Shown: one piece after another, positions 7,129 to 26,836 of the stretch
How positions within the stretch are numbered: position 1 is the stretch's first letter
How the letters are laid out: each line of letters starts with the position of its first letter
Assembly (NCBI GenBank): GCA_003245835.1
Contig: QKCC01000193.1
Span: 1 to 45,134, forward strand
DNA length: 45,134 nucleotides
Reading direction: 5' to 3'
Origin: Spirochaetales bacterium
Lineage (GTDB): Bacteria; Spirochaetota; Spirochaetia; UBA9216
Made by a program: the position numbers and the translations under genes
Notes under the pieces: model-generated
What the model was told of the DNA's origin: nothing
The model's input: the letters and a program-made list of their open reading frames with translations, nothing else
Database searches by the model: none

Positions 7129-7162
7129 ATGCGATGAGGTGCAGAAATGCATCTCATCGTAT
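7129..7162 (+). promoter_or_regulatory. 15-bp hairpin with GAAA tetraloop over the merR start region
   Basis: Bases 7129-7143 pair with 7148-7162 (13 Watson-Crick pairs and two G-U pairs) and close on a GAAA tetraloop at 7144-7147. The stem contains the only good ribosome site for merR (GAGG, 7136-7139), and the first in-frame ATG (7147-7149) begins on the last loop base. No T-run follows, so it is not a terminator. It could limit MerR translation relative to the dehydrogenase or be a processing site. Confidence 0.6.
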
Positions 7163-7590
7163 ATGATACGGGTAACAATATGAAATACACAATCGGACAA
7201 ACTGCTGCAAGGATGGGTGTTACAATCTCAGCCCTGCGCTACTACGACAAAGAGGGACTGCTGCCCTTTGTAGATAAAAAAGAGAACGGCGTCAGGGTTT
7301 TTAAGGACGGGGATTTTCAGTGGCTCAATGTAATTTCGTGTATGAAAAATACAGGGATGCCGATTAAGGACATCAAAAAATATATTGACCTGTGCATGGA
7401 GGGCGACAACACCCTGGAGGACAGGCTTCAAATATTTCAAAACAGAAAAGATGCTGTCCTGAAACAGATTGATGATTTAAAGGGGCTGCTCGAGACAATT
7501 AATCATAAAATAAATTATTACGAAGAAGCAATAATGGCCGGAACGGAAGCTATTCATAAACAGAACACAGTCCCGGTTACAGCGACGTGA
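7147..7590 (+). CDS. MerR-family transcriptional regulator
   Basis: The winged helix-turn-helix YTIGQTAARMGVTISALRYYDKEGLLP is typical MerR. A helical dimerisation segment follows (about 85-135). There is no Cys-rich C-terminal metal loop, so it is not a MerR/CueR/ZntR metal sensor; the size and operon fit the AdhR/NmlR-like group linked to aldehyde stress. Two starts are possible. The ATG at 7147 has GAGG seven bases upstream but lies inside a strong hairpin. The ATG at 7180 gives MKYTIGQ, the usual family N-terminus, without a clear ribosome site. It is 26 bp downstream of the dehydrogenase and probably co-transcribed. Its end overlaps the convergent cyclase gene by 14 bp. Confidence 0.88.
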   Translation: MHLIVYDTGNNMKYTIGQTAARMGVTISALRYYDKEGLLPFVDKKENGVRVFKDGDFQWLNVISCMKNTGMPIKDIKKYIDLCMEGDNTLEDRLQIFQNRKDAVLKQIDDLKGLLETINHKINYYEEAIMAGTEAIHKQNTVPVTAT

Positions 7591-10500
7591 GGAATGCCTT
7601 CTTCTGTGCCCGGCGCATTTCATCGATTCGTTCAAGAAAAACCTTCGCGGTTTCATCATCAGGGTCGGCCTCAGCTACCTTTTCAAGCAGCGACTGGGCC
7701 TCAGTGAAATCCTGTCTTGAAAATTTCATGATGCCTTCCTCGAAATCAACCTTGGAGCGGTTCTTCTTCTCGCGCCGATCTTCGTTATCAGCGTCGAAAA
7801 TCTCAAATAAAGCGACCGCTTTATCCTTGCCCTTAACCTTAACCCGGCCGAGGAACCTGAAGTTATAGTCAATCGGATTCTCGAGCTTCACGAAGGTCTC
7901 CTGACTGATTACAACATTGGCTTTGTACAGTTTCGTTACGTCCTGAATTCTGGATGCCAGGTTAACAGCGTCCGAAATAACCGTCCCCTGCATCCGCCTT
8001 TCGTCGCCGATTATTCCAAGGATCATATTTCCGGTGTGAATTCCGATTCCAATATTGATCGGACGGTACCCGCAGTTGGCCCTGTGCCCGTTGTAGACAT
8101 TGACGTGTTCAATCATCTCCCTGGCAGCGGCAAGCGCGTTCTCCGGCTTGTTGGGGAAAAGCGCCATTATTGCGTCTCCGATAAACTTATCGACAAAACC
8201 TCCGTTTTCGGAAATCATCGGGCTGAACCTGCTCAGGTAGGAATTTATAAACTTGAAGTTTTCTTCCGGAGTCATATTCTCGGACAGGTTAGTGAATGCC
8301 CTGATGTCAACAAAGAGTATCGTCATCTCGCGTGAAACCTGGTCGCCGAGTTCCACATCAGTGATATTTTCCTGTCCAAGCGACGACAGAAATTCGGTAG
8401 GAACAAACCTGCTGTAAATGTTGCTTATTCTGGAAAGCTGCAGATGGGTATTTACCCTTGTAAGAAACTCCTCCTGTATGTAGGGCCGCGTAAGAAAGTC
8501 ATTCGCGCCGGAGGTCAGCCCCTCCATCATATCGGATACATCCTCTTTATTGATGACTAGAATGACAGGAAGCTCATCCTTCGGAAAGACCTTTCTGATT
8601 TCAACGCAGACTTCATAGCCGCTCATATCAGGCAGCTTCACGTCTATTACAACAAGGTGCGGAACATCTTTCTTTACCCGGTTCAGAAGGTCAGCGCCGG
8701 AAAGCATAGGCACAACCGAATAATTCATCGATGAAAGGTGACTTTTCAGTATCTGAAGTTCTTCAACGTCCTTTCCCGCAATCAGAATTTCAATATTGCG
8801 GTCGGATGTTATTTCGTCCAGGACCGGCTGAAGATTGATAAGTGCATCCATCTCCAGAGCTTCTTCCGCAGTGAGACTTGCTTCTCCTTCCCAGAACGGG
8901 AACCTGAGCCGGTATATCATGGAATTATCTTCAAAATCAACAATCATCGGACTGCCGTGAAGTTCGGCAAGCCTCTTCGCGATTGCAAGGCTCAGGTCCG
9001 AGACATCTTCATCATTGCCGCCCACTGTACCGCCGTGTTCATAGGCCTTCAGCAGTGCATTAAATGCTGCTTCATCAAGATCACTGCCCGTCACCCTGAT
9101 AATCAGTTCCAGATTAATATCTTTCTCTGCACAGCCTATAATTACGCTGCCCGCTTTTGTATGGCTGATCGAATTGTTGACTATATTATAAATTATATGC
9201 TCGACCCTTCTTTCGTCAGCCTTTATCAGCCTCACTTCCCTCGTAATCTCCGAATGCATTTCAATCTTTTTAAGTGCGACAAGAGATTCACAGCTGTTCA
9301 GAACTTTTCGGGACAATTTAAAAAGATCAACCTGATCGTTTTTAAGCTCTATCGCATTCTCTTTTATTTTGGAGAAATAGAGTACGTCATTCACCATATT
9401 TGAGAGTCTTACACCGTTTGAGACAATCAGCGAAGAAGTAGCTATCTGCTCGGAATTAAGCGGACCAATAGACCCCCTCAGCAGGCTCTCGCCGAGCTCG
9501 ACTATATTTCTTATCGGTTTATCAAGCTCAACAGAGTTTCTTTCAATAAAATTCTCTTTCTGATTCATCACTGCCGCAAGCTTCATGTGGGTCTCTTCAG
9601 AATCCCGGGCATAGGAAATATTATCCGTAACCAGACGGTAGGTTTGCTGAAGTGCAAAAACAGCAATACCGACAAAAGCAAGCCGTTTTGAATTAAACAG
9701 GCCGAAAGTGAATGCATAATCGTGCAGAAGACAGGCATACATAAAGCTGAACGAAGCAAGGGTCAGTCTCGCGCCGGTTCGATGAGCCCTCACCGCAGCG
9801 GCAAGACGCCACAGCAGAAAACCGGCGGCAGCTATCAGCATATAGGCATAGTATCCTGCAACTACACGCAGAAATTCCAGCGGGACAATAATACCCGCTA
9901 CAGCTGTACCCACTGCAATAATATTGCTGACAACAATAGCCGGTTTACGAATTTCATCCGGAAAAAGTGAACGAAAATAGTTAAAAAGAACCGGACTCAT
10001 GAAGATAATAAGGATTTCTTCGACCCTGTAAACGAGTCCTCCGCCCAAAGCCGGAATAAAACCTACAGCAAGAACTCTTCCCGAGAACATTGCATAAAGA
10101 GTGAACAGAAATGAAAGCAGAAAGAAGTACATACTGTAGGGTTTCTTACTCAGGTAATTAAAATTGTACAGATGCAGCATCGTAATACAGGCAAGCGCCA
10201 GAACTATAAGCAGATCAATCACCTCACCCTGGGAAGCCATTGATTCTACATCGCTGTAACGGCCGTAGGATATCCAGTTGAGCATACTTCCGCCGAACCT
10301 GTGACTAAAATTTGAAATATGAAGAACAAGTTCCAGATCATCGTCCTGCTGGGAAAAAGGTACAATCAGCGGATGCGGCGCATACACAACTTCAGTATCC
10401 GGTCCGGAAGATGGAACGCCGGCGTTCGCAACAACCGATCCGTTTATTTCCAGAGTGTAAGCGCTGTAAAGAGGATTAATCAAAAACGCGTTATTTCCCT

Positions 10501-10777
10501 GCATTCCGAGCGTTTCAAGATTCAGTTTGAGATAATATTCGCCCGTCCCGAAAACATTGGAAAAAGGAACTTCTCCGTTGCCGGAACTGTTATCGGTGAA
10601 GGCCGCCCACCCTCGGTTAAGGCTGAGGGTTTTTCCCTCCGGAAGACTGTAAACCGCCGCACGATCGCCGGAATCCATTTTAAGATCACCAGCTGCATAA
10701 AAATATCCGAAAGACCCAAGGAGCAGGGCAACAATAACAAAAACACCGATAATAAATAAACGTTTCTCTATATTCAT
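7577..10777 (-). CDS. 7TM sensor / pseudo-histidine kinase / receiver / adenylate cyclase hybrid
   Basis: 1066 residues. Order: a membrane anchor (8-27), an extracytoplasmic sensory domain (about 35-185, 7TMR-DISM-like), seven or so membrane segments (about 187-385), a kinase-like region (about 395-640), a receiver (about 655-780), a class III cyclase domain (about 815-995) and a helical TPR-like tail. The cyclase has both metal Asp residues (Asp824, Asp868), Lys864 and Asp936 for adenine, and Asn939/Arg943, so it should make cAMP. The kinase part lacks the phosphoacceptor His: the SHELRTP position reads SVELDKP with Val416. It also lacks a clear G1 box. The receiver keeps its acceptor Asp (VIDVKLPD) but has lost one acidic residue, and the KP dipeptide reads RP. 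The ATG at 10777 is preferred over an in-frame TTG at 10783. Confidence 0.9.
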   Translation of the reverse strand: MNIEKRLFIIGVFVIVALLLGSFGYFYAAGDLKMDSGDRAAVYSLPEGKTLSLNRGWAAFTDNSSGNGEVPFSNVFGTGEYYLKLNLETLGMQGNNAFLINPLYSAYTLEINGSVVANAGVPSSGPDTEVVYAPHPLIVPFSQQDDDLELVLHISNFSHRFGGSMLNWISYGRYSDVESMASQGEVIDLLIVLALACITMLHLYNFNYLSKKPYSMYFFLLSFLFTLYAMFSGRVLAVGFIPALGGGLVYRVEEILIIFMSPVLFNYFRSLFPDEIRKPAIVVSNIIAVGTAVAGIIVPLEFLRVVAGYYAYMLIAAAGFLLWRLAAAVRAHRTGARLTLASFSFMYACLLHDYAFTFGLFNSKRLAFVGIAVFALQQTYRLVTDNISYARDSEETHMKLAAVMNQKENFIERNSVELDKPIRNIVELGESLLRGSIGPLNSEQIATSSLIVSNGVRLSNMVNDVLYFSKIKENAIELKNDQVDLFKLSRKVLNSCESLVALKKIEMHSEITREVRLIKADERRVEHIIYNIVNNSISHTKAGSVIIGCAEKDINLELIIRVTGSDLDEAAFNALLKAYEHGGTVGGNDEDVSDLSLAIAKRLAELHGSPMIVDFEDNSMIYRLRFPFWEGEASLTAEEALEMDALINLQPVLDEITSDRNIEILIAGKDVEELQILKSHLSSMNYSVVPMLSGADLLNRVKKDVPHLVVIDVKLPDMSGYEVCVEIRKVFPKDELPVILVINKEDVSDMMEGLTSGANDFLTRPYIQEEFLTRVNTHLQLSRISNIYSRFVPTEFLSSLGQENITDVELGDQVSREMTILFVDIRAFTNLSENMTPEENFKFINSYLSRFSPMISENGGFVDKFIGDAIMALFPNKPENALAAAREMIEHVNVYNGHRANCGYRPINIGIGIHTGNMILGIIGDERRMQGTVISDAVNLASRIQDVTKLYKANVVISQETFVKLENPIDYNFRFLGRVKVKGKDKAVALFEIFDADNEDRREKKNRSKVDFEEGIMKFSRQDFTEAQSLLEKVAEADPDDETAKVFLERIDEMRRAQKKAFLTSL

Positions 10778-10861
10778 AAGCAATAAAGATTATAACCTTG
10801 ATACAAAAGTATTTCTACATTATCCTACGTTCTATAATTATCGGCAAATCTGGAGTAATTA

Positions 10862-19014: not shown

Positions 19015-20568
19015 ATGAATACCCCGAACGACATTCTTGACGAAACGGTGCGCATCTGCACTTCCCTTTCACGCGAGAACTCACTCAATACGATGGTTTC
19101 AATCCTTGTGGAGCAGTGCCTCGATATCAGCCGCTCCGAACTTGCAGGGCTTTATTTTTACCCTGAAAGCGGCGGCACCCCGAGGCTGGTTTACAAAAGG
19201 GGCTGGTACCAGCTTCCGGATCGGCTTAAAAAGGATTCGGATCTGATCAGTTTTGCGGAAGACTGCGGGGAGGCAATTGTTCTGCTGGAAAGAAAAGAGT
19301 CCCCGTTTTCCGGTGTTCTTCTTGATCCGAAAATGAACAGCGGGATTATCCTTCCGCTCAATGTGCCGACAGAGAGGCTCGGGTACCTGATCCTTAATTC
19401 GGACAGGGAAAATTTTTATACCGGCGACCGCTTCAGGTTCCTTGAATCTGTATCCAAATTTGCGGGCGGACTGCTACACAATTCAGTAATGTACAGCCAG
19501 CTTAAAGACTACGTCCGTAAAATTGAGGCGATGGAGAGATACCAGAAAAACATCTTCTCATCCATGTCCGATTTTCTTATTACAGTCAACTCAACCGGCA
19601 GGATACAGTATTTCAATGCTGCCGCGGAACGAAAACTCGCTCTGACTGAGGAGGCGGTAGGTCATGATTTTGAAGAGGTGTTCGGAAAGATTCTGACACC
19701 CAAGGTTCTGAAAACAATCTCTAAATCTGAACTTTCAGGTGAATCTGTTCTGGGCATCGAAGGAATACTTAAGATACCTTCAGACAATATTGATTATTCG
19801 CTTAACATAAACCCTCTTCTGGGCAAGAGGGGCAGACATGAAGGACTGACCCTGATTTTCAAGGATCAAAGCGCCGAGAAAGAAATGAAGGCGAAGATGA
19901 GTGTCGCTATTGAAGAACGAAGGCTGATCAAGGACATGTTCTCGAGATACCTTTCGAACGATATAATCAATCACCTGATGGAGAGCCCTGAGCTTGTCAA
20001 TCCCGGCGGTTCCAAAAAAACTGCGACAGTCTTTTTTGCGGACATCAGGGGATACACCGCTTTTTCTGAAACCCAGGAGCCCGAAAATATAATCGAAATA
20101 CTGAACGAATATTTCAGGGAAGCTGTTGAAATCGTCATAGATTACGGCGGCTATATCGATAAATTCATCGGGGACTGCATAATGGCGGCCTGGGGTGTGC
20201 CGCTGTCGAATGACGAAGAAGACGCAAAAAAAGCGGTCGGATGCGCGGTTGAAATCCAGCGGCTTGTCGCATCAAAGGAGCGCAAGTTTTTCCGGGGCAA
20301 GGCTGAATCACTGAAAATCGGCATAGGCATGCATTCGGGACCGCTTGTAGCCGGAAACCTCGGAAGCAGCAGGAGGATGGATTATTCGATAATCGGCGAC
20401 ACAGTCAACCTTGCCGCAAGGCTTGAAGGCGTTGCCGGGCCGAACGAAATAATAATCACCGGAAACACCCGCAGCATGCTCGGAGACAGCTTCAACCTGG
20501 AAAAACGAAAGCCGGTCATGGTCAAGGGAAAAAAAGAACCAATAGAGATCTATAATGTAGCCGTCTAA
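19015..20568 (+). CDS. Adenylate cyclase with GAF and PAS sensor domains
   Basis: 517 residues, soluble. GAF-like domain at about 5-158, PAS-like domain at about 172-288, a short helical linker and a class III cyclase domain at about 335-517. Catalytic residues are complete: metal ligands Asp343 and Asp387, adenine-specific Lys383 and Asp462, and transition-state residues Asn465 and Arg469. It should make cAMP in the cytoplasm under control of a small ligand or redox signal at the GAF or PAS domain. AAGG precedes the ATG. The following membrane HEAT-repeat gene begins 38 bases after its stop and is probably in the same operon, so the HEAT protein may be a partner or effector. Confidence 0.93.
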   Translation: MNTPNDILDETVRICTSLSRENSLNTMVSILVEQCLDISRSELAGLYFYPESGGTPRLVYKRGWYQLPDRLKKDSDLISFAEDCGEAIVLLERKESPFSGVLLDPKMNSGIILPLNVPTERLGYLILNSDRENFYTGDRFRFLESVSKFAGGLLHNSVMYSQLKDYVRKIEAMERYQKNIFSSMSDFLITVNSTGRIQYFNAAAERKLALTEEAVGHDFEEVFGKILTPKVLKTISKSELSGESVLGIEGILKIPSDNIDYSLNINPLLGKRGRHEGLTLIFKDQSAEKEMKAKMSVAIEERRLIKDMFSRYLSNDIINHLMESPELVNPGGSKKTATVFFADIRGYTAFSETQEPENIIEILNEYFREAVEIVIDYGGYIDKFIGDCIMAAWGVPLSNDEEDAKKAVGCAVEIQRLVASKERKFFRGKAESLKIGIGMHSGPLVAGNLGSSRRMDYSIIGDTVNLAARLEGVAGPNEIIITGNTRSMLGDSFNLEKRKPVMVKGKKEPIEIYNVAV

Positions 20569-20606
20569 TGCAGCTCTCCGGCTGTGTTCGGCATTGGAGG
20601 ACAGGA

Positions 20607-23186
20607 ATGGAAATATATCCCGGTTTCAGTATGCCTCTCTGGAGCATAATTACAATAATTTCAGCCGTTGCAGCCCTGCTTGTTTTTTTAATTATCAGGG
20701 TATATCTGAATTATGCCTTTTTAAAAAAATGCGACAGGGCTTTGAACGATACCGAGTCCATGACGGAACTCAGGGCGATGCCGTCCGACAGGCTGCTGAG
20801 GCGTTCGCGCCTGATAGAGAAAGCAGCGGAAAGAAACGGAATTGAGCTTATATCTGCCGTCGGACTTGATGTTATTTGGGAAAAGCAGTTTTTAGTCTAC
20901 AGAAAGACAAAGTACCTTAGGAAATTTGTTAAATATTTTCAGGAGAAGGGACTCTTCTTCTGTATTTTAGGCGGAAAAAACAAACCGGCAGTCGAGAAAA
21001 TATTCGTTAAGACACTCAGCCAGAGCAGCGATCCGAACCTGCTGAAGAAGATCGCGACAGCCTGCGCAGGAACTGATTTCGACGGAGAATACGCCTCCGG
21101 AATAACGGGCGACAGGTTTCAGGAACTTACAGAGCTGACCGGGGATTCAGAATGGCCGGTACGGTTCTTTGCCGTCAAACTTCTGCTTTATATCGATGAT
21201 CAGAGAGCCGAGCGGATAATCTGGGATGCATTCAGGGATCCGTCGGCTGTAATCCGCAGAGCCGCGGCAGCTGAATTCAAACCGGACGACACATCGCGGC
21301 TGAGCGCCAGGCTGAAGGGACTTTTACTCGATGACCCTGCCTACCGCGTACGAAAAGCCGCCAGGATTCGGCTCGACTCCGATTTTCCCGAATACTACCG
21401 AATACAGGCTGACAGCCTGACAAAGCCCCAGACAATACATGTCCTCGGCCTGCTTCACGAAGGGTCAGACGAAGACGAAAATACTGCGATCGAATTTCTG
21501 CAGTCCGAAGATCTGGAAATCCGGCTTCAGGCGGCTCTTCACCTGCAGCAGCAGGGAAGCCTTGTCAGGCTTTTTGCGGGGGTCCCCGCCGGCGACAAGG
21601 CGGAGTATGAGCGGGTAAGGAACCTGCTCAAAAAAGCCTGCGAGGTTAACTGCACTGAATTCCTGAAAGAGCTTGAAAATACTGTAAACCCGGCCGCCGT
21701 TCAGCTGTCGGCTGAACTTCTGAAAAAAAACGGAAACCGCTCCTTCATAGACAAACTAGCAGAGAAGGTCTTCACGGACAGCTTCAGGGAAAGCAGCCGC
21801 GAACATTACCTTGAAATATACAGGGAAGCGGTTGAATGCATATCACTCAGGGGTACAGACAGAGCTCTTGAGCTGCTGAACAGGGAACTTAAAAACAGGC
21901 ACGGCGATATGGAACTCGCAGCTGTCATTCTGCCGATGCTTCCGGTCCGCGGTGATTCAGTCTTTATTCCGACGCTGATCTCACTGCTGAAAAGTGAAAG
22001 CTTCGCCGATGCGGCCTTACTGCGTTCAACGATCGAACGCTTCCCCGCTTCCATGTATATCGCCGATCTGATAGCAATACTGCGCAGCAGTCCGGAACAG
22101 TATTCACTTGCTGTACGGAAAGAGGCATTCAAGGTTCTCGGAGAACTCAAACTGCCGTGCTGTCTTCAGATGATTCTTGAACACCTGAAACTGCTGAGCA
22201 GTTCGGAACAGAAGGAATTTGCGGCGATTCTGACCAGCTTCGATGAAGAAAAATTCTCTGAGAGGGTTGAAGGACTGCTTGAAAGCTGTGATTCCGAAAC
22301 GAAATGCGCAGTCATGAGCGCACTTCCCGTCACCGGGCTTAAAAAATTCGTGAAGGTAATCAAGGATTCCGCAAAAGACCCCGACCCGGATGTCAGGATT
22401 GCAGGAATCTGGGCCCTTGCAGGCTACGGCGAAACCAAGCTGATCAGCCAGATGACGGACATGCTCAGAGATCCGGTCGAGCGGGTCCGGCGCGAAACCG
22501 CCTCTGTAATCGCAGAATACGGAACCCCGTCGGCCATGGAAGAACTCAAGGCCGTACTATCCGATGAAAATGAAGTGCTCCCGGTTAAATCCGCTGCTGT
22601 TTACGGCTTTGGAAAATCAGGCCGCACCGAGTCGATCAACATACTGGTTGATTTCATGGAGGACCCTGAACTGCGCCCGCTGATCATCAAGGCTCTGTCC
22701 GGAAAAACCGCCAAGGGTGAAATCAGGCTGATGGTGGAACTGTTCAAGGACGCTGCCCCGCAGCTGCGTGAATATATTGCGGAAGCCTTCAAGGGCATGG
22801 GAGAATCTTCGGAGTCCGCTATAATCGAGCTTTTAAGCGAAGAGATTGCATCTTTAAGAGATATCCTTTCCGAAATCCTGCTGAAAACCGGCTATGTGGA
22901 ATCAACGGTCCGTAAACTCAGGCACCGGATGCCGGAAAAAAGAAAAGAGGCGGCAGCGACGCTCGCGCTCATGCAGACAAAAGAGGCGTTTAAGGGTATG
23001 GTGCTTGCGGCGAGGGATCCCGATTCCGATGTCCGGGTGGAAGTATTGAAAGCACTCGAAAAACTGAACACCCCTGACGGGGAACCTATACTCAGTGCGC
23101 TGAAGGAAGACCCGGACAAGCGCGTCAGGAAATATACCCTCTGGGCGCTTGAAAGACTGCAGGCCAAAAATACAGAGGCAGGTTAA
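20607..23186 (+). CDS. Membrane-anchored HEAT-repeat protein
   Basis: 859 residues. One N-terminal membrane segment (about 9-30) is followed by a long cytoplasmic alpha-solenoid. HEAT-type units are clear, for example DPSAVIRRAAAAEF, DPDPDVRIAGIWALAGYGE, DPVERVRRETASVIAEYG and DPDSDVRVEVLKALEKL near the end. Such repeats are protein-binding scaffolds; no catalytic motif is seen. The start at 20607 is preferred because GGAGG lies eight bases upstream; an in-frame ATG at 20568 overlaps the cyclase stop and would add 13 polar residues before the membrane segment. Co-transcription with the cyclase suggests it anchors or reads out cyclic nucleotide signalling at the membrane; this is inference. 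Confidence 0.88.
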   Translation: MEIYPGFSMPLWSIITIISAVAALLVFLIIRVYLNYAFLKKCDRALNDTESMTELRAMPSDRLLRRSRLIEKAAERNGIELISAVGLDVIWEKQFLVYRKTKYLRKFVKYFQEKGLFFCILGGKNKPAVEKIFVKTLSQSSDPNLLKKIATACAGTDFDGEYASGITGDRFQELTELTGDSEWPVRFFAVKLLLYIDDQRAERIIWDAFRDPSAVIRRAAAAEFKPDDTSRLSARLKGLLLDDPAYRVRKAARIRLDSDFPEYYRIQADSLTKPQTIHVLGLLHEGSDEDENTAIEFLQSEDLEIRLQAALHLQQQGSLVRLFAGVPAGDKAEYERVRNLLKKACEVNCTEFLKELENTVNPAAVQLSAELLKKNGNRSFIDKLAEKVFTDSFRESSREHYLEIYREAVECISLRGTDRALELLNRELKNRHGDMELAAVILPMLPVRGDSVFIPTLISLLKSESFADAALLRSTIERFPASMYIADLIAILRSSPEQYSLAVRKEAFKVLGELKLPCCLQMILEHLKLLSSSEQKEFAAILTSFDEEKFSERVEGLLESCDSETKCAVMSALPVTGLKKFVKVIKDSAKDPDPDVRIAGIWALAGYGETKLISQMTDMLRDPVERVRRETASVIAEYGTPSAMEELKAVLSDENEVLPVKSAAVYGFGKSGRTESINILVDFMEDPELRPLIIKALSGKTAKGEIRLMVELFKDAAPQLREYIAEAFKGMGESSESAIIELLSEEIASLRDILSEILLKTGYVESTVRKLRHRMPEKRKEAAATLALMQTKEAFKGMVLAARDPDSDVRVEVLKALEKLNTPDGEPILSALKEDPDKRVRKYTLWALERLQAKNTEAG

Positions 23187-25513: not shown

Positions 25514-26836
25514 TTAACAGTTTGTTTCGAGTTTATTAACCCTCTCAGTCAGCTTTGCATTCTGCTCATTTGACCGCGCCAGCCGCCTGGCAAGAAGCCT
25601 TGAGAGGAAGATGCCGTAATACGGATAATCCCTGACAAGGGTGACAAATGCTTTTCTGCTGATCTTGATCAGCTTACCGTTATCTGCAGCCTTAATCGTT
25701 CCGTTCCGCTGGTTACTCAGCAGAAACGACATTTCTCCCATGAATATATCATTCTGGCTGAGTTCGCCTACTCTCTTTCGCCGGTGGTATACATAATATT
25801 TTCCGGACACGATGTAATAGAGATAGTCGCTTGCCTCCCCTTCCCTGAAAATAATATCGTTGCGTTTGACCTGAAGGATTTCTTCCTTCCGGAACCTGAT
25901 CGGAAAGGGCTGCTGTTCCTGCTCTTCATGTTCAATCGTTATTGTGACCTGGTTTCCTGTTTTGTTATACGAGATCTCTTTTGACAGCTGCCTGGCCATC
26001 CGGATTCCCCTGCCGTGCAGTGAGTAGTCATCCTGGTTGCGCAGCTTTTCCTGAAGCGCTTCGACATCAAAACCTTCACCTTCGTCCCTGATTATATACT
26101 TTGTGTGGTCCGCCCTTGTTTCCCATTCCAAACGCACCATTTTCTGGGCGATCCTTTTGATTCTGCATTTTTCGGCTACAAGCTCGACTACGCTGCCGCC
26201 GTTTAGCATGAAGTCTGTTTTCTCATCATAGCTTACACCGCAGTTTCCGTGTTCGATTCCGTTCACAATCAGCTCGGCAAGGACAAGCTGAAGGTGCATT
26301 TTTTTATCGGAACTGATATTCCCTGACTGGGCAAGACTCGTAGCGGCAATACCGGCATAGATTGGAACAGCAAGAATATCGTTGGGGATCATGAAGGAAC
26401 CGGAGGAACTTTCCATAATCTTGGAAGCGAAGCCGCGCTGAAAAATAACCTGGTAGTTGTCACGGATTATTTCAACGCTCTTCATCAGGTGCGATCTTAT
26501 CCGGTAGCTGTTCAGCAGGGTAAGAATATTTACCTTCTTGAGCTTCTCGAGCAGTTCATCCTCGTCAACGTCTCCCTGATCATACAAGCCGATTATTCCG
26601 AAATAATGCAGCCATGCGTCCTCTTCAAGTCTTTTAATAAGCGATTCCAGCGGAATTACCGGATCTGAAAAATTTATTACAACAATCTCGGGAAGTTCAT
26701 AATTAATAAATTCGTATATTTCATCTTCATTTGTAATAAATACCAGCTTATAGGATTTTGATTCCCATAGCTCATAGGCTTCATTTATTGTTTGATTCAG
26801 CTTTTTGTCCGAGCTGATAATTCCAAGCACTTTCAT
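25514..26836 (-). CDS. Receiver-like / RsbW-type ATPase / cyclic-nucleotide-binding fusion
   Basis: 440 residues. The N-terminal ~115 residues look like a degenerate receiver. A HATPase_c domain of the RsbW/SpoIIAB class follows at about 165-305, with N box LAELIVNGIEHGNCG, G1 box RDEGEGFD and G2 box HGRGIRMA. The C-terminal ~110 residues form a cNMP-binding domain (FREGEASDYLYYIVSGKYYVY, then GEMSFLLSNQRNGTIKA, with the phosphate-cassette Gly-Glu and Arg in place). I infer a protein whose anti-sigma-like kinase or ATP-binding activity is gated by cAMP or cGMP, receiving signals from the cyclases in this window. The start overlaps the upstream HD-GYP stop (ATGA), so translation is coupled. 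Confidence 0.85.
   Translation of the reverse strand: MKVLGIISSDKKLNQTINEAYELWESKSYKLVFITNEDEIYEFINYELPEIVVINFSDPVIPLESLIKRLEEDAWLHYFGIIGLYDQGDVDEDELLEKLKKVNILTLLNSYRIRSHLMKSVEIIRDNYQVIFQRGFASKIMESSSGSFMIPNDILAVPIYAGIAATSLAQSGNISSDKKMHLQLVLAELIVNGIEHGNCGVSYDEKTDFMLNGGSVVELVAEKCRIKRIAQKMVRLEWETRADHTKYIIRDEGEGFDVEALQEKLRNQDDYSLHGRGIRMARQLSKEISYNKTGNQVTITIEHEEQEQQPFPIRFRKEEILQVKRNDIIFREGEASDYLYYIVSGKYYVYHRRKRVGELSQNDIFMGEMSFLLSNQRNGTIKAADNGKLIKISRKAFVTLVRDYPYYGIFLSRLLARRLARSNEQNAKLTERVNKLETNC

Follow-up and report, generated by a model that had tools for sequence, protein, structure and literature searches.

A spirochaete receptor cyclase whose histidine-kinase segment has lost its phosphorelay residues and may couple by conformation

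CyaC joins a dimerization and histidine-phosphotransfer hairpin (DHp), a catalytic ATP-binding domain (CA), a receiver and a class III cyclase, in that order. Passages of PMC4284465 describe CyaC as purportedly phosphorylated and activated by AphC, and passages of PMC4399386 describe the amoebozoan receptor ACR (AcrA) as having 6–7 transmembrane helices, HATPase_c, receivers and a cyclase, and as lacking the HisKA phosphoacceptor domain. According to the cited part of PMC5361649, about 1% of histidine kinases carry a substituted His; DivL, which has a histidine kinase fold with Tyr in place of His, is presented there as a conformational switch and response-regulator binder. RetS can work by non-enzymatic binding (passages of PMC7695008), and a seemingly inactive, allosteric kinase domain stands between receptor and cyclase in animal receptor guanylyl cyclases (passages of PMC1592074). 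Here we analyse a minus-strand gene at 10777–7577 of a 45,134-nucleotide contig from a Spirochaetales bacterium, the whole of which we call the window. The gene encodes a 1,066-residue protein with the order sensor, seven-transmembrane (7TM) region, DHp, CA, receiver and class III cyclase. In the open-access papers searched, no bacterial receptor cyclase combining a 7TM region with a dead histidine kinase was described, subscription papers lying mostly outside the search.

The window protein shares its DHp–CA–receiver–cyclase order with cyanobacterial CyaC-type loci (such as L059, L061, L066 and L080), and a Foldseek search matches its modelled cyclase domain to Spirulina CyaC (1wc3; TMt 0.80, root-mean-square deviation 2.3) and also to CyaB. 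Those loci have intact motifs and are phosphorelay-competent by sequence, whereas the window protein is without the His, the ATP motifs and the receiver metal site; as far as residues tell, it has the layout of a CyaC-type phosphorelay cyclase and not the functional His and Asp residues. ACR, in the parts of its description cited above, has undergone this loss too, in a largely similar architecture, but it is eukaryotic, has two receivers and lacks HisKA rather than carrying a replaced His. DivL acts in trans on the CckA pathway and, to our knowledge, has no fused cyclase; what it shares with the window protein, on the passages cited, is a histidine kinase fold with a replaced His. RetS and LadS have a 7TMR-DISM-type input (7TMR-DISMED2) and a related DHp–CA, but act in trans on GacS and have no cyclase. 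The kinase domain of the animal receptors is of the Ser/Thr/Tyr type and of unrelated fold, an analogy only. The window protein is thus a variant of the hybrid kinase–cyclase kind with precedents for its parts, and not an active histidine kinase.

To compare residues we used an alignment of 56 hybrid rows (55 open reading frames (ORFs) and the half-gene L165), with a comparison set of 36 non-redundant rows outside the cyclase clade; 7 near-copy and 13 clade rows were left out. Val416 aligns with the phosphoacceptor His, as a first-pass annotation of the window had proposed: 32 of the 36 comparison rows have His there, two Ala, one Gln and one a gap. No His occurs at residues 398–507 of the window protein or at 400–480 of the same-genus orthologue L029, and with these His-free stretches and no conserved substitute an alternative phosphoacceptor His is ruled out. 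The weak G1 box that the annotation had remarked on is real, and the damage is greater than it stated, with Val562 at the G1 Asp (35/36 comparison rows) and Asp594 and Ser596 at the G2 glycines (35/36 and 34/36). The N-box Asn535 (33/36) is retained in the window protein and in all five genomes of its genus. The receiver was likewise correctly described as changed in conserved residues, four of the key five being replaced: Gly668 and Lys669 stand at the acidic pair (Asp in 34/36 at each position), Ile742 at the Thr (33 Thr and 3 Ser of 36) and Arg764 at the Lys (36/36), leaving only Asp712 (34/36). Class III cyclases use two metal-binding Asp, a transition-state Asn and Arg, and a base-selecting Lys and Thr. 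The active site is complete, as first claimed: the window protein carries D824, K864, D868, T932, N939 and R943, and so does every clade row whose cyclase can be read; letters of L165 at these positions are alignment artefacts, the half-gene ending near residue 595.

Judged by these residues, the HisKA/HATPase_c segment is without the acceptor His, the G1 Asp and the G2 glycines of a kinase, the receiver is without the residues of a phosphorylatable receiver apart from Asp712, and the C-terminal part has the domain and active-site residues of a class III cyclase. Loss of the phosphorelay is well supported at this level; phosphate transfer from His to Asp would be impossible in the window protein, and Lys864 with Thr932 predicts adenylate specificity (ATP to cAMP).

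The loss is shared by the whole order as compared here. The gene is present in all seven genomes and keeps the His in none of them, so that the close homologues with intact kinases that would have marked the change as recent are missing. Within the genus position 416 is Val (window), Ile (L027, L028 and L029) or Glu (L165, the half-gene of G001), and in the g3 genome it is Asp (L031). All five genus genomes, window included, lack both the His and the G1 Asp, which excludes assembly error; in one of them, G001, the gene was read as two halves, each at a contig end. Gly668, Ile742 and Arg764 are common to the 5/5 readable genus members and Lys669 to four of them (L032 has Asn), and Asp712 is kept in 6/6 order rows with a receiver and also in the seventh genome (L040). 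A divergent phosphoribosyltransferase gene adjoins the cyclase gene in G000, G002, G003 and G004 (the last read on contig L056) and lies about 1.7 kb upstream of it in G006; because this neighbourhood is shared across genomes, the estimated 7% contamination of the window assembly is irrelevant here. The seven order proteins form one clade (support 100/99, receiver (REC)+cyclase tree). Recent damage or an assembly artefact is ruled out by the agreement of the five genus genomes, by the seven of seven in the order and by the shared neighbourhood, and an old loss of the kinase in the order is strongly supported by these sequences. In the single g2 genome the protein (L166) goes further: a purpose-built sensor profile matches its sensor and 7TM region (4.3e-32), a purpose-built kinase profile gives no match at E 1, and a 103-residue linker (30% Glu, 17% Pro, net charge −29) takes the place of the kinase, followed by pseudo-receiver and cyclase.

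The remaining modules have decayed unequally. In six same-genus pairs of degenerate proteins with cyclase identity of 91–95%, identity is 75–87% in DHp, 45–66% in CA and 80–87% in the receiver; in twelve motif-intact pairs at 90–97.5% cyclase identity, eleven cyanobacterial and one Thiotrichales and not independent of one another, it is 89–99% in CA (median 92%), with medians of 97% in DHp and 92% in the receiver. The closest intact spirochaete pair computed (L038/L039) has 72% in the cyclase, 67% in DHp and 62% in CA. A CA-dead trio, L033, L036 and L037, resembles the window genus, with CA at 34–58% and DHp at 72–86% (three pairs). Only nonsynonymous divergence (dN) was compared, and no dN/dS, because synonymous sites are saturated (proportion of synonymous differences 0.61–0.94, nine pairs). 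Across the six genus pairs dN is 0.09–0.17 in DHp, 0.08–0.15 in the receiver, 0.23–0.54 in CA, 0.43–0.60 in the sensor and 0.03–0.06 in the cyclase, CA exceeding DHp by 2.5–3.7 times and the receiver by 2.9–5.2 times. These contrasts in identity and dN place the His-less DHp and the metal-site-less receiver under strong purifying selection, with CA far less constrained. Receiver alpha1 is the helix that docks on DHp. Its identity to the clade consensus is 43–71% in 11 DHp-bearing clade rows (L032, a half-gene, 64%) and 43, 21 and 21% in the three DHp-less rows, a post hoc comparison to which we give no weight; alpha4 drops like alpha1, and alpha1 stands at 36, 7 and 21% in three DHp-bearing outgroup rows.

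An AlphaFold2 model of the window protein (mean predicted local distance difference test 78.9, predicted template modelling score (pTM) 0.47) has a beta-rich N-terminal domain followed by seven long bundled helices; the seventh, 367–433, continues without a break into alpha1 of DHp. DHp alpha2 spans 442–472, CA is folded with a low-confidence lid at 583–592, and the receiver is a (beta/alpha)5 domain with alpha5 extended to 788; the DHp and receiver folds are intact. Foldseek matches the kinase part to chains of HK853, RetS and GacS, so that it retains a DHp–CA fold. PDB 6rh7 is titled as HK853 H260A with RR468 D53A, a DHp/receiver complex; because both residues are mutated there, docking of a receiver on DHp needs neither the His nor the Asp.

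We consider it probable, though well short of assured, that a receptor cyclase once gated by phosphorelay came to be coupled by conformation, DHp and pseudo-receiver forming the coupler and CA being an eroding remnant. With similar assurance, the sequences suggest that the ancestor was a phosphorelay-gated sensor, hybrid histidine kinase and cyclase, and the present protein a receptor adenylate cyclase. Ligand binding outside the cell would shift the 7TM bundle; the shift would travel along the 367–433 helix into the four-helix DHp bundle of a dimer and alter the packing of the docked pseudo-receiver, whose extended alpha5 and linker would determine how the two cyclase domains are placed relative to each other. 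CA would no longer be needed and would be eroding, gone together with DHp in a sister genus. The first-pass proposal that kinase and receiver act purely as structural transmitters therefore survives in part: it fits the retained DHp and receiver, but not the eroding CA, nor a sister genus that is kinase-free yet keeps sensor, 7TM region, pseudo-receiver and cyclase.

Several observations pull the other way. Conservation of DHp could reflect dimerization alone; the twelve intact controls come from few, non-spirochaete lineages; and DHp, as well as the receiver, is less conserved than in those controls (for DHp, 75–87% against a median of 97%), so that some DHp constraint has been lost too. The acidic linker of L166 means either that rigid helical coupling is unneeded there or that L166 has lost sensor control. 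With Asn535 retained in the five genus genomes, nucleotide binding by CA is unlikely rather than impossible, and with a pTM of only 0.47 the domain arrangement of the model is not confidently predicted.

Relatives at several stages of loss bear on these readings. The sample comprised the best 80 of 257 records and 394 genomes taken out of a larger class, so that some relatives may have been missed, and the trees exclude L174, a wrong row with an end branch of 7. A single cyclase clade of 15 rows holds the nearest relatives (support 100/99 on the cyclase, 100/100 on REC+cyclase). Members from other families run from intact through CA-dead to kinase-free. Within this clade L034 has all motifs intact. 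In L030 the His survives, as do Asn535 and the G1 Asp, but the G boxes are altered in part and the receiver Lys is Arg. The trio L033, L036 and L037 (family f6) keeps the His and a full receiver and has lost Asn535 and the G1 Asp, and in L035 position 416 is Glu and CA is ruined, although the receiver is intact. No kinase or 7TM region was detected in L042 and L043, each of which joins a receiver-like part, with Ala at the receiver Asp, to a cyclase. A 7TMR-DISM is joined directly to the cyclase in L047, L049 and L051. Unordered parsimony counts two changes for the His, three for CA and two for the receiver. Approximately unbiased (AU) tests do not reject a single origin of all His losses (p 0.0999 on REC+cyclase, 0.332 on the cyclase alone), an origin shared by f1 and L035 (0.163 and 0.464) or a loss shared by f1 and L042/L043 (0.367 and 0.421), and we therefore do not claim that His or kinase losses were independent. 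That f1 and the L033/L036/L037 trio owe their CA decay to one event is rejected by the AU test when REC+cyclase is used (p 0.0134); on the cyclase alone it is not (0.181).

Three side observations concern other members of this sample. The DHp of L033, L036 and L037 could take phosphate only from elsewhere. The hybrid L160 (G191) has Ala for the His, Ser for the receiver Asp and Leu, Glu and Lys for the cyclase Lys, Asn and Arg, so that all its modules are apparently dead. Two genomes carry two cyclases in one gene run (L175 8506–14067 and L176 8008–13620), composed of a membrane cyclase, a coiled-coil-like membrane protein, a smaller protein and a kinase-free pseudo-receiver cyclase.

The strongest rival to conformational coupling, which we nevertheless think unlikely, is that kinase and receiver have no signalling role, that DHp and receiver persist only for dimer and fold, and that the whole segment is being lost, as has happened in L166 and L042/L043. 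Erosion of CA, the acidic linker of L166 and the direct 7TMR-DISM–cyclase fusions all suit such a fossil, as does the want of a kinase in L042 and L043, where a kinase profile also finds no match in ORFs of at least 90 codons within 17.0 and 16.0 kb around them. A fossil does not readily explain why CA dN so far exceeds that of DHp and the receiver across the genus pairs, or why the receiver substitutions are shared across the genus and not scattered, although shared descent alone could explain the latter.

A bolder extension of the conversion reading is equally doubtful. Phosphorelay-gated receptor cyclases may have been converted to directly coupled ones more than once, with intermediates alive in one bacterial class (L034, then L033/L036/L037, L035, the window genus, L166 and L042/L043), and in the window genus Lys669 may hold the pseudo-receiver locked in a state competent for signalling, with DHp controlling it by docking and not by phosphorylation. 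Lys669 sits at the position of CheY Asp13 (CheY numbering). In the cited parts of two papers, a D13K/Y106W double mutant of CheY is constitutively active (PMC11528121) and CheY D13K is stated to be so, whereas the equivalent change in EpsW is not activating (PMC4671073). A Lys669-locked pseudo-receiver is a lead only, with Lys in four of the five genus genomes and Asn in the fifth.

Less probable still is a pseudokinase acting in trans, in which the dead DHp would bind another kinase or response regulator, as in RetS–GacS and DivL–DivK/CckA, and bring a second signal to the cyclase. DivL and RetS are precedents, the matched solved folds and sequences include the kinase region of RetS, and several hybrid kinases in the genome match the DHp–CA–REC stretch; but no partner gene is fixed beside the cyclase in the loci compared, where the shared neighbour is the phosphoribosyltransferase, and every DHp already has a fused pseudo-receiver available for docking. 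It is very improbable that only the built-in kinase is dead and Asp712 is still phosphorylated by another kinase or a small phosphodonor. Phosphorylation is not to be expected of a receiver that lacks its Mg site, and although Asp712 is kept throughout the order, the window protein has substitutions at both metal-site acids, the Thr and the Lys; this explanation fits it poorly while fitting L035. Misalignment or recent damage in an ordinary active hybrid kinase is scarcely credible: HATPase_c still scores over its cut-off, but the lack of an alternative His and the agreement across genus and order refute it as far as sequence allows.

Motion and phosphate co-occur in active kinases, where signalling through the kinase core by one is hard to tell from signalling by the other. 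In the conversion we favour, the phosphate chemistry is gone, a measurable output (predicted to be cAMP) is left and relatives stand at several stages of loss, making possible a direct test of how a 7TM receptor drives a DHp bundle and receiver without phosphate. In bacteria the protein would be a counterpart of ACR in amoebozoans and of the kinase domain, likewise inactive, of receptor guanylyl cyclases in animals.

Table 1 Features of the hybrid cyclase gene, with positions in the window
Feature	Position	Strand	Basis
Predicted extracytoplasmic beta-rich sensor, fast evolving, residues 30–173	10259..10690	-	AlphaFold2 strands 31–173; topology inferred
7TMR-DISM-like transmembrane region, residues 174–387	9617..10258	-	PF07695 below cut-off; seven long model helices from 174
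Pseudo-DHp helical hairpin, residues 405–472	9362..9565	-	HisKA below cut-off; model; 75–87% identity in genus
Val416 codon (GTT) at phosphoacceptor His place	9530..9532	-	Family alignment
Eroding CA (HATPase) domain, residues 481–630	8888..9337	-	HATPase_c; residue table
Val562 at G1-box Asp place	9092..9094	-	Family alignment
Asp594-Leu595-Ser596 at G2-box Gly-x-Gly place	8990..8998	-	Family alignment
Pseudo-receiver, residues 662–786	8420..8794	-	Response_reg; (beta/alpha)5 in model; residue table
Gly668-Lys669 at acidic metal-binding pair	8771..8776	-	Residue table; ungapped alignment to solved CovR/VicR-like receiver
Asp712, receiver phosphoacceptor position, retained	8642..8644	-	Residue table
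Class III cyclase domain, complete active site, residues 813–995	7793..8341	-	Guanylate_cyc; residues; fold match
C-terminal helical tail, perhaps TPR-like, residues 999–1065	7583..7783	-	TPR_19 13.9 bits, below cut-off 25; model helices

The cyclase ORF starts with an ATG at 10777, has a TTG two codons upstream at 10783, and stops at 7577, its 3′ end overlapping that of a convergent MerR-type gene (7147–7590). Pfam matches are Guanylate_cyc at residues 815–988 (77.8 bits, cut-off 21.9), Response_reg at 664–775 (62.5 bits) and HATPase_c at 521–613 (29.4 bits, cut-off 26.4); HisKA, at 14.7 bits, falls under its cut-off of 26.9, and 7TMR-DISM_7TM (PF07695) scores 20.1 bits (E 0.00065) and 25.3 bits in the genome search, both below the cut-off of 29. 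In the sensor, the window protein is 39–47% identical to three orthologues from its genus.

Other genes in the window point to cyclic-nucleotide signalling. About 15 kb from the cyclase, a 440-residue protein (25514–26836, minus strand) combines an anti-sigma-like HATPase_c_2 with a cyclic-nucleotide-monophosphate (cNMP)-binding domain, a possible cyclic-nucleotide-controlled switch. At 19015–23186 on the plus strand, the gene for a 517-residue PAS (weakly GAF) cyclase is followed by that for an 872-residue HEAT-repeat protein, and in G010 (L174) homologues of both lie directly beside the hybrid cyclase. The G000 genome has 13 class III cyclase and 15 cNMP-binding matches, indicative of a large cyclic-nucleotide network.

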